Of a stretch of 36,323 nucleotides of DNA, positions 3-36,323 are shown piece by piece. The notes under the pieces were generated by a model, which was not told where the DNA came from, did no database searches, and saw only the letters and a list, made by a program, of their open reading frames with translations. Location of the stretch: assembly GCA_016937155.1 (NCBI GenBank), contig JAFGWM010000072.1, forward strand, positions 1 to 36,323, read 5' to 3'. This DNA is from Deltaproteobacteria bacterium. Its GTDB lineage: Bacteria; Myxococcota_A; Polyangia; HGW-17. Position numbers and translations under genes: made by a program. Numbering within the stretch: position 1 is the stretch's first letter; each line of letters opens with the position of its first letter.

Positions 3-182
3 AAAAAAATAACCTGGGTGGATGAGAAATGAGGTGGGGAAGGAGGGAAAAAACTAACCTGGGTGAGTAATAATCAACTTTAACTTTTTCTGTCTGAGAA
101 TGATGAGAAAATAAAAGAAAAAAAAATAACCTGGGTGGATGAGAAATGAGGTGGGGAAGGAGGGAAAAAACTAACCTGGGTG
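3..182. repeat. 63-bp direct repeat, two copies 117 bp apart
   Basis: Positions 3-65 and 120-182 are identical over 63 bp. Each copy begins in an A-run and contains the motif TAACCTGGGTG twice, so that motif occurs four times (10-20, 55-65, 127-137, 172-182). The stretch between the copies (about 88-124) carries a Pyr-rich/AGAA-rich segment that also forms the tail of the tRNA-derived repeats at 206-439, so the two repeat families are mosaic. Open frames across this stretch are low-complexity translations of the repeat and have no ribosome-binding site. I see no gene in 1-439. Confidence 0.85.
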
Positions 183-205: not shown

Positions 206-439
206 GTGGAGCTGAGGGGGAAGGAAGCCCCTGACTGCTTTGTCTGTCTGAGAATGGTGAGAATGATGAGAAAATAAAAGAAAAAAGTGGAGTTGAGGGG
301 GAAGGAAGCCCCTGACTGCTTTGTCTGTCTGAGAATGGTGAGAATGATGAGAAAATAAAAGAAAAAAGTGGAGCTGAGGGGGATCGAACCCCTGACCGCT
401 TTGTCTGTCTGAGAATGGTGAGAAAATAAAAGAAAAAAG
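206..439 (-). repeat. Tandem repeats carrying copies of the tRNA-Ala 3' end
   Basis: Three tandem units lie directly downstream of the tRNA on its strand, starting (plus-strand coordinates) at 206, 287 and 368, with periods of 81, 81 and 71 bp. The 71-bp unit lacks a 10-bp segment. The unit next to the tRNA repeats the last 29 nt of the tRNA exactly (369-397 equals 440-468: part of the variable loop, the T arm, the 3' acceptor strand and the discriminator base). The two outer units keep the T-stem and acceptor bases but have a changed T-loop. Each copy ends in a hairpin-forming T arm followed on the minus strand by a run of six T. The arrangement resembles the repeats after E. coli tyrT; that comparison is from general knowledge. 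Confidence 0.9.
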
Positions 440-512
440 TGGAGCTGAGGGGGATCGAACCCCTGACCTCATGACTGCCAGTCATGCGCTCTCCCAGCTG
501 AGCTACAACCCC
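440..512 (-). tRNA. tRNA-Ala (anticodon GGC)
   Basis: The minus strand folds into a complete 73-nt cloverleaf. It has a 7-bp acceptor stem with the alanine identity pair G3:U70 and a D arm containing AGCTCAGCTGGGAGAGC. The anticodon loop is CTGGCAG with anticodon GGC (plus-strand 477-479). The T arm has a perfect 5-bp stem around TTCGATC, and the discriminator base is A. The 3' CCA is not encoded, so it must be added after transcription. A run of six T follows one base after the discriminator. Confidence 0.97.
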
Positions 513-8738: not shown

Positions 8739-10949
8739 TCAGTTGATGGGGTTGATGATCTGCATATTCAGACCACCAGGGTAGGCATAGGAGTCGTAAC
8801 TGTCATATCCCAGAACAACAATACCGAAGGGAGCATCACCATCAAAAGTGTGAATGCCATCGCCAACAGATATTCTGGCTACCTCCCACTCAACTGGATT
8901 TACACCATCATTTATTGGAGTGAAGTTAGACTGAGCAACCACTGTTCCATCCATGAGAACATTGGAACCAACTGGTTTTATCAAAATGGCATGATCATAA
9001 ATCCAGTTGCTTGGTACGAGAACAATATAACTGTCCAGGAATTGAGCTACTGGAACCATCTGGGTCATAGCAGGATCTCCCGCACGATCCGTTGACGCAT
9101 TAGTGTAATAGGATGAAGAAAGATACTCCATTACCAGTATTGGTTTGTCAGCTGTTACAATAAAATCACCGGGATTTGCAATTGAACCTGAAATGGTAAG
9201 TTCCTGCATCTGTCCTGCATTAAGTGTTATTGGTGAAGCTGGAAGACCGGTTACTTCCGGACTGGCAGTGAACCATATATTTGTATTATCCTCACTGGCA
9301 AAAACCTGCCAGATAGTTGCTTCTGGTGTTCCTGTATTACGAACCGGCATACGTGCTGCTACATATACATTTCCCCATGACTGCAGTCCGATGAGTTGTT
9401 CCTCAAGATGATCACAGCAGCATCCCATTGCAGGGATATTGGCGCACCAGTGTGTGGAGAATACGGAAATGGGGTGGTTTGACTCAATATATGTCCCACT
9501 GAAACTGTTGTCTCCGGGGGTTTCAATCTGAACATAGTCACCTTCATTCATGACCTGAGTGAAAGTGTATGGCACATTAGCTGTAAGTGCAGGCATTGTT
9601 CCTCCCGCACTGGTATTCTGAGAAGAAGTGATGTTAATGACAGTTCCATCTTCGATGGCTGCAATATTGATCTGAGGATTTCCATATCCAATACCCCAGC
9701 CTACTACATAATAAAATCTGTCGAGGGAACTTGCCGGTAGAAGCAGACTGGCATCGGAAGTATAACTGCTCTGGCCATTAACAGGCTGGAATTGGTAAGC
9801 AATAACCGGTAAATCCGATACAATCTTATATGCACCACCAACATTGAAATTTGTGTAGTTTACATGTCTGTCCGGAAGATTGAACTGATACAAAGTACCC
9901 GGGGCAACACTTGATGTTTCAACAACAGTCCAGGTGTTTCCACTTTTTGACAGAACATCAACATTTGCAGTCTGTGTGGGATCTGTATTTGAAATAACAA
10001 CAGCGAACTGCAGTGCATCATAATTTTCCACAGGATCGTTGTTGGTATCAATGGCATAATAGACGCATCCCACGCTGGAACGGGTCATATCAGCTATTTC
10101 ACAGGGAGTTAAACAGTCTGAATCAACTATCCCGTCACAGTCATTGTCGATTCCATCCCCACAGGTTTCAAGAGCTGCAGGATTTCTTGTGGGGTCATTG
10201 TCATCACAGTCACCATTTTCAACTGTCCATCCATCCCCATCAATATCCTCATCGATAAGAAAGTCACAGTTGTTATCTATTCCATCACCTGGTATTTCAG
10301 CATTGAAGGGACCCCTTGTGGGATCATTTTCTGCACAGTCACCGTTGCAGGGTCCTGCTCCGTCTCCGTCAAGGTCAGGTTCTGCTGTATCAATAAATCC
10401 ATTACAGTCATTATCCACGCCATCAAAACAGTCTTCAATGGCACCAGGATGGACTTCACTGTTTGAATCGTCACAGTCACCGTCTTCAACTGTGTAACCA
10501 TCCCCATCAAAATCAGCATCTGTAATTCCGTCACAGTTGTTATCAATTCCGTCATCAGGAATTTCAGGGGAAGAGGGATTAATATCTGGATTTGAATCAT
10601 TGCAGTCACCGGCGCATGGTCCATATCCATCCCCATCCCCATCCGGCTCGTTATTATCAATGGCATTGTTACAGTTGTTATCAATTCCATCATCGCAGAT
10701 TTCAACTTCACCGGGGTTGATATCCGGATTTGAATCGTCACAGTCACCTTCAATTTCGTTATATCCATCCTGATCATCATCCACTAAAGGGTCTGAGGTG
10801 TTGGTGGAATTGTTAGTTGTATTATTTGTGGTGTTGTTCAGGGTTGTATTATTCAAACTGTTTGAATTGCCTTTATTTGAATACCCGATGCCGTCGCAAC
10901 TGATCAGAGTTGATAAAAAGAATGCCATAAGTAATAAATATTTAATCAT
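8739..10949 (-). CDS. Surface lipoprotein with five MopE-type repeats and an IgGFc-binding-like domain
   Basis: A 736-residue exported lipoprotein. The signal peptide ends in LISC (Cys18), followed by an Asn/Thr-rich linker (about 24-52). Residues 57-279 contain five Asp-rich units of the MopE putative metal-binding type, with alternating DGDGDGY, GDCDDSNP and DGIDNNCDG motifs. From about 283 to the end there is a beta-rich domain resembling the IgGFc-binding N-terminal family (blocks such as YKIVSDLPVIAYQFQP, FSGTYIESNHPISVFSTHW and AILIKPVGSNVLMDG). Homologues occur as large surface proteins in myxobacteria; the ligand is unknown. AAGG lies upstream of the ATG. It is 33 nt downstream of the VWA lipoprotein gene, likely the same operon. 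The repeats could bind Ca2+ or Cu; not determinable here. Confidence 0.88.
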   Translation of the reverse strand: MIKYLLLMAFFLSTLISCDGIGYSNKGNSNSLNNTTLNNTTNNTTNNSTNTSDPLVDDDQDGYNEIEGDCDDSNPDINPGEVEICDDGIDNNCNNAIDNNEPDGDGDGYGPCAGDCNDSNPDINPSSPEIPDDGIDNNCDGITDADFDGDGYTVEDGDCDDSNSEVHPGAIEDCFDGVDNDCNGFIDTAEPDLDGDGAGPCNGDCAENDPTRGPFNAEIPGDGIDNNCDFLIDEDIDGDGWTVENGDCDDNDPTRNPAALETCGDGIDNDCDGIVDSDCLTPCEIADMTRSSVGCVYYAIDTNNDPVENYDALQFAVVISNTDPTQTANVDVLSKSGNTWTVVETSSVAPGTLYQFNLPDRHVNYTNFNVGGAYKIVSDLPVIAYQFQPVNGQSSYTSDASLLLPASSLDRFYYVVGWGIGYGNPQINIAAIEDGTVINITSSQNTSAGGTMPALTANVPYTFTQVMNEGDYVQIETPGDNSFSGTYIESNHPISVFSTHWCANIPAMGCCCDHLEEQLIGLQSWGNVYVAARMPVRNTGTPEATIWQVFASEDNTNIWFTASPEVTGLPASPITLNAGQMQELTISGSIANPGDFIVTADKPILVMEYLSSSYYTNASTDRAGDPAMTQMVPVAQFLDSYIVLVPSNWIYDHAILIKPVGSNVLMDGTVVAQSNFTPINDGVNPVEWEVARISVGDGIHTFDGDAPFGIVVLGYDSYDSYAYPGGLNMQIINPIN

Positions 10950-36234: not shown

Positions 36235-36250
36235 TAACCCTCCTGGGTTA
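36235..36250. other. 6-bp inverted repeat with 4-nt loop
   Basis: TAACCC, loop TCCT, GGGTTA. Read on the minus strand it is followed by a T-rich stretch (36221-36234), like an intrinsic terminator, but no minus-strand gene is visible to its right. It could instead be a leader hairpin of the gene starting at 36261 or a protein-binding site between the two divergent genes. Confidence 0.4.
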
Positions 36251-36260
36251 AGTTTATAAA

Positions 36261-36323
36261 ATGGTGTATAAATTCCTTTGGGTTTTACTCCCTGGCCTGA
36301 TTTTTTGTATTTTGTTGTTTATG
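36261..36323 (+). CDS. Probable 5' end of a membrane or secreted protein (cut by window end)
   Basis: The last 63 nt read without a stop from an ATG: MVYKFLWVLLPGLIFCILLF and then Met. This is a hydrophobic N-terminus with one early lysine, like a signal peptide or membrane anchor. No good ribosome-binding site is visible, so the call is tentative. It is divergent from the operon at 36162. Confidence 0.35.
   Translation, partial: MVYKFLWVLLPGLIFCILLFM

Follow-up and report, generated by a model that had tools for sequence, protein, structure and literature searches.

Organisation of the tRNA-Ala locus

The stretch of DNA analysed here (the window) is the whole of contig G000:C36, 36,323 bp in length, with base 1 at a contig end. 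Near this end lies a minus-strand gene for tRNA-Ala (64.3 bits in Rfam), so that downstream of the gene means toward base 1 (Table 1). An earlier note, made from the sequence alone, had described this gene as being followed by three units of 71-81 bp that each carry the 3′ third of the tRNA, and ARAGORN, TRF and the repeat families confirm this arrangement. TRF reports an array at 199-467 with a period of 81 bp (3.5 copies, 92% matches, score 415), with which repeat families D2 and D3 are consistent, and the three units, of 71, 81 and 81 bp, repeat the tRNA 3′ third together with T6 and the trailer. The final 30 nt of the gene, GGTCAGGGGTTCGATCCCCCTCAGCTCCAC, recur exactly in the nearest copy, a match previously given as 29 nt. 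In the two outer copies the T-loop sequence TTCGATC is replaced, as the earlier note had also observed, while the AGGGG/CCCCT stem and the acceptor bases are kept. Near-identical copies spaced at 81 bp are not due to chance. The D and anticodon arms are absent from all three copies and the T-loop is lost in two of them, and the copies are therefore by-products rather than functional tRNAs. An Rfam search gave tRNA as its sole match.

T6 directly follows every tRNA-type head, in keeping with the earlier description of each copy as a hairpin followed by six T; that description overlooked the nine bases (CAGCTCCAC) lying between the T-arm stem and T6 in the copies. A scan of positions 1-800 found no canonical terminator. 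Elsewhere in the window, a 736-aa open reading frame (ORF) at 8739-10949 carries an IgGFc_binding match and five MopE metal-binding motifs.

Table 1 Features at the two ends of the window.
Feature	Position	Strand	Remarks
tRNA-Ala, anticodon GGC	439..512	-	ARAGORN, Rfam RF00005
T6 and trailer immediately 3′ of the tRNA	398..438	-	TTTTTTCTTTTATTTTCTCACCATTCTCAGACAGACAAAGC; from sequence
Copy 1 of the tRNA 3′ end	368..397	-	30 nt identical; T6 at 362-367, then trailer
Copy 2	287..317	-	T-loop is CTTCCTTC, stem kept; T6 at 281-286, then trailer
Copy 3	206..236	-	Same altered loop as copy 2; T6 at 200-205, then pyrimidine tail of the core repeat type
Element-end core ACCCAGGTTAGTTTTTT, pyrimidine tail	165..181	-	
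Core head ACCCAGGTTA with T9	118..136	-	Joined to tRNA trailer tail CTTTTATTTTCTCATCATTCTCAGACAG
tRNA trailer tail	90-117		Family D1, 95% identity to 399-438
Element-end core ACCCAGGTTAGTTTTTT, pyrimidine tail	48..64	-	
Last visible core head	3..19	-	Runs into the contig end
Edge of multicopy family B repeat (CCTGGGTTAAGTTTATAAAATGG)	36242..36323	+	Opposite contig end

A mosaic array reaching the contig end

The earlier note had confined the repeats to positions 206-512. Repeats are indeed present there, but the array does not end at 206; it continues to base 1 as further units of another kind, which belong to a repeat found throughout the genome. Bases 1-198 are covered by this repeat, whose core is GGTTAGTTTTTT, usually CCCAGGTTAGTTTTTT, and for which 84 genome matches were listed, some of them weak; contig ends hold many of the strong matches.

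Two kinds of head stand at the T-runs, the tRNA 3′ end and ACCCAGGTTA[G], and the core-type heads in the window read ACCCAGGTTAG or ACCCAGGTTA, then T6-T9. The tails are likewise of two kinds, the tRNA trailer (CTTTTATTTTCTC..TTCTCAGACAG) and pyrimidine tails (for example CCTCCCCTCTTTCAACC or CCCTCCTTCCCC). In the window every one of the four possible pairings of head and tail occurs: tRNA head with trailer (T-runs at 438, 367 and 286), tRNA head with pyrimidine tail (205), core head with trailer (126), and core head with pyrimidine tail (170 and 53). Since all four occur and their junctions always fall at a T-run, the tRNA copies form part of a single mosaic array in which segments have been swapped at T-runs. 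The GGTTAG core is absent from the tRNA-type units themselves. This membership in a longer mosaic of a mobile-element-associated repeat was missed by the earlier note. Because the array extends to the contig end, the length and copy number given here are those of its visible part, and short-read assembly may have mis-set the number of copies.

The family B sequence at the opposite end of the window also lies at contig ends C5E, C37S, C47E and C71S, making five ends in all; the one at C37 lies about 8 bp after a tRNA-His gene.

A genome-specific core repeat

The core, AAAACTAACC on the purine strand, was counted in 2.40 of the 4.11 Mb of the same genome, a sample that includes nearly all contig ends and is biased towards them. 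It occurs 133 times in these 2.40 Mb, as against seven occurrences of the reversed word; permuted words averaged 11.4 occurrences, with a maximum of 34. Almost all core loci (41 of 45) are outside called genes, and they are oriented 17:18 with respect to the neighbouring gene, which indicates no preference for gene 3′ ends. The core is present in most intergenic tandem arrays with a period of about 30-70 bp, the unit of which includes locus-specific sequence; on contig C53, for instance, the unit is the 3′ end of the neighbouring gene with its stop codon. It also stands at the edge of multicopy sequences (families A-E) where several contigs stop. Four core loci (C10, C33, C45 and the present one on C36) adjoin a tRNA 3′ end, an association noticed post hoc that may be an enrichment. 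The core had no match in 315 of the 317 other genomes examined from the class, and the remaining two have single, apparently coding matches which look like chance.

The core is a high-copy, intergenic and genome-specific short repeat, as REPs and BIMEs are. REPs have a conserved tetranucleotide such as GTAG next to their palindrome; the recurrent motif here is CTAACC/GGTTAG, and GTAG is not present. In most contexts it lacks the imperfect palindrome of 20-50 nt that characterises REPs: AACC/GGTT pairing is possible in just 31 of 71 distinct core contexts, and the DNA is mostly polypurine/polypyrimidine. The arrays examined show a single orientation rather than the alternating one of REPs. Since the long palindrome and the alternating orientation are both lacking, we do not claim formal membership of the REP/BIME class. 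Two other classes of repeat were considered and rejected: judged by eye, the core does not fit the GTTRRRY motif with a long symmetric partner of integron attC sites, and these arrays contain no spacers as CRISPR arrays would.

A multicopy element with a probable RAYT-like protein

The core caps a multicopy element, family E, at no fewer than 13 contig ends. This element encodes the protein C-terminus DHDVYFPPGTNQMYETHGVRISQLAIERLKME[TA]*, with synonymous changes between copies, and this C-terminus resembles that of a degenerate ORF on contig C7 (BLASTP E=1e-5, 11 of 21 residues identical). The body of the C7 ORF matches the NCBIfam model REP_Tyr_transpos (NF047646) with E=1.8e-5, below the curated cut-off; the degenerate ORFs score 26.8-29.9 bits, and all RAYT-like matches reported here fall below the cut-off of 80 bits. 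Complete family E copies are absent from the assembly, and the assignment draws on a 33-aa C-terminus and its degenerate relatives. The Y1/HUH transposase domain PF01797, the mark of IS200/IS605-like elements, has no match in the genome, the C7 ORF included, and we therefore regard the family E protein as a likely, rather than proven, remnant of a RAYT-like (HUH, IS200/REP-associated) transposase. The short-repeat patchwork that litters this genome probably derives from mobile elements. Family E DNA had no counterpart in any of the 317 other class genomes, and searches of plasmids and viral contigs did not find the RAYT-like protein.

Degenerate RAYT-like ORFs are located at C7:1628-2782 (L079), C21:32700-33440 and C66:2391-2777, and in those on C7 and C21 the noncoding 3′ part terminates at ATCC, after which comes [CA]GGG. 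At C33:175-407, after a tRNA-Arg(acg) gene, the first ~100 bp of family E occur twice in tandem; between the copies lie AAACCAAAATAAA-like flanks similar to target-site duplications. These flanks, together with A-rich 3′ ends, had led us to consider a target-primed retroelement origin, which was dropped once the family E C-terminus matched the RAYT-like ORF. Just two RVT_1 matches are present in the genome, one of them in an apparently CRISPR-associated ORF. A reverse transcriptase domain is encoded by an 897-aa ORF (perhaps Cas6-RT-Cas1) at C8:2482-5175 on the minus strand, near a CRISPR-like repeat, GTTTCAACTCCGTGCCGGTGGCACGGTCATTTAGGGC, at the C8 start and C83 end.

The locus in other genomes

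In a scan of 85,000 species genomes for a two-copy core pattern, one other case was found, a GC-rich Myxococcota MAG (G318; L242, JAGOFO010000071) with 26 copies of CCCAGGTTRRTTTTT and none of the control. One of its core copies, C96:1248-1262 on the minus strand, is about 70 bp from an NF047646 match of 64.8 bits (C96:779-1180, minus strand) that forms part of a 324-aa RAYT-like ORF. A genome of the same genus as the window (G001) has seven NF047646 matches, several in ORFs of 294-347 aa, yet no core.

Comparison of the same locus in relatives, which the earlier note had proposed with regard to copy number, revealed no tRNA 3′-end copies in any of 19 tRNA-Ala loci. In the same genus (L007) and in the family (L009 and L010), tRNA-Ala is syntenic, lying next to a gene whose product is homologous to the first protein of the window (58% identity in L007, ~35% in the other two). 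At all three loci an ordinary intrinsic terminator stands downstream of the tRNA, and copies of the tRNA end are absent. These comparisons support a recent origin of the array in this lineage. The L007 locus (G001:C43, 1577-1680) has a degenerate second copy of the tRNA-Ala terminator hairpin about 80 nt downstream of the first.

Origin of the array

Based on these observations, we propose as the probable explanation that the tRNA 3′ end was captured by slippage or template-switching within a composite BIME-like array for which mobile-element ends had provided the seed. The array would have grown in tandem between the tRNA-Ala gene and sequence beyond the contig end, from units composed of a head, T6-T9 and a pyrimidine-rich tail, some heads being the genome-wide core ACCCAGGTTAG that would mark the ends of RAYT-like elements and others the 3′ third of the neighbouring tRNA. 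Core-bearing repeats would first have inserted downstream of the tRNA, after the split from the sister species since core repeats are absent there. Tandem duplication and template-switching at T-runs would then have recombined heads with tails and amplified the tRNA 3′ end together with its trailer, driven either by polymerase slippage alone or by a transposase that cuts and joins. The slippage suggested in the earlier note is thus retained as part of the mechanism, set within a mosaic that involves a mobile-element repeat. We also considered a more specific version, in which a RAYT-like HUH transposase accepts the T-arm hairpin with T6 in place of its own repeat and so multiplies tRNA 3′ ends into repeat units; we think this quite unlikely.

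Plain slipped-strand duplication of the tRNA 3′ end and trailer, with the mobile repeat nearby by coincidence, whether earlier or later, appears rather unlikely. It would account for the simple head-to-tail arrangement of the units and their internal 9-bp slippage (TGAGAATGA), and E. coli tyrV has tRNA 3′-end repeats without a comparable core. A further instance may be the tRNA-Leu(gag) gene at the end of contig C48 (60276-60417), the 3′ third and terminator of which are apparently duplicated about 100 bp downstream with loss of the T-loop; this duplication, with no core nearby, lies at a C48/C25 junction deduced from a 26-nt contig overlap, and suggests that tRNA 3′ ends may be duplicated independently of the core. 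At the present locus, by contrast, the trailer follows a core head (118-126) and the core-family pyrimidine tail follows a tRNA head (200-205), which indicates that the two types of repeat have recombined.

The loss of an ancestral intrinsic terminator, its role being taken over by several hairpin and T6 units, is an improbable origin. The relatives have a strong terminator at the place where the window has none, the stems have been kept while the loops changed, and the AAAG at the junction in units 2-4 can pair with the start of the T-run. Predicted RNA fold energies are, however, no better than those of shuffled sequences (z -0.45 to -1.76), which together with the empty terminator scan and the bases between T-arm and T6 leaves this suggestion of the earlier note weak, and several other tRNA genes of the genome also have no obvious terminator. 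That the array serves as a source of small tRNA-3′-like RNAs, the role suggested for RttR at E. coli tyrTV, seems very unlikely: the layout is that of tyrV-rttR and the T-arm is intact in one copy, but the loop changes in the other two, the absence of conservation in relatives and the Rfam result all speak against it. Direct repeats of tRNA 3′ ends are the usual trace of site-specific integration by tyrosine recombinases, for which these ends are classic att sites, but the failed integration raised by the earlier note is very unlikely here, given that the assembled part of the array consists of tandem units too short to hold an element, with no recombinase gene inside, that grade into a genome-wide non-tRNA repeat.

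Relation to known systems

The parallel with E. coli tyrT drawn in the earlier note holds, as the last 19 nt of tyrV in E. coli K-12 recur exactly three times downstream at a spacing of 178 nt. In the tyrTV/rttR region as at the present locus, a tRNA gene is followed by tandem repeats, every one of which contains the 3′ end of that tRNA. In contrast to tyrTV, the repeats described here have units of 71-81 bp that take in the T-arm, with the T-loop degenerate in two copies; they pass into a non-tRNA repeat found genome-wide, and they have no RttR or Tpr counterpart.

The arrays also resemble BIMEs in being intergenic and in repeating, in tandem, a short sequence specific to the genome; BIMEs are linked to Y1 (HUH) transposase genes, as the core may be. 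The core units here have one orientation per array and mostly no long palindrome. BIMEs that have integrated the 3′ ends of rayt genes are on record (PMC2817692), whereas the gene captured here is a tRNA. RAYTs are described as single copy (PMC3116915), unlike the multicopy RAYT-like element of this genome. In Pseudomonas fluorescens SBW25, ordered REPIN clusters are tandem repeats that include flanking sequence (PMC3116915), as do the units of the present array, although the inverted REP-REP pair of REPINs was not found here.

The array is an unusual but largely explicable scar, and provides no evidence of a new kind of tRNA gene. With a tRNA 3′ end incorporated in a BIME-like mosaic, it extends the range of captured gene ends from rayt genes to a tRNA, and links captured gene ends to the unexplained repeats of the tyrTV type. 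Were the transposase to act on the T-arm hairpin as in the more specific version above, it could itself convert tRNA 3′ ends into repeat units. A genome with many arrays of locus-specific units would be a good system in which to ask whether RAYT-type transposases make tandem arrays.
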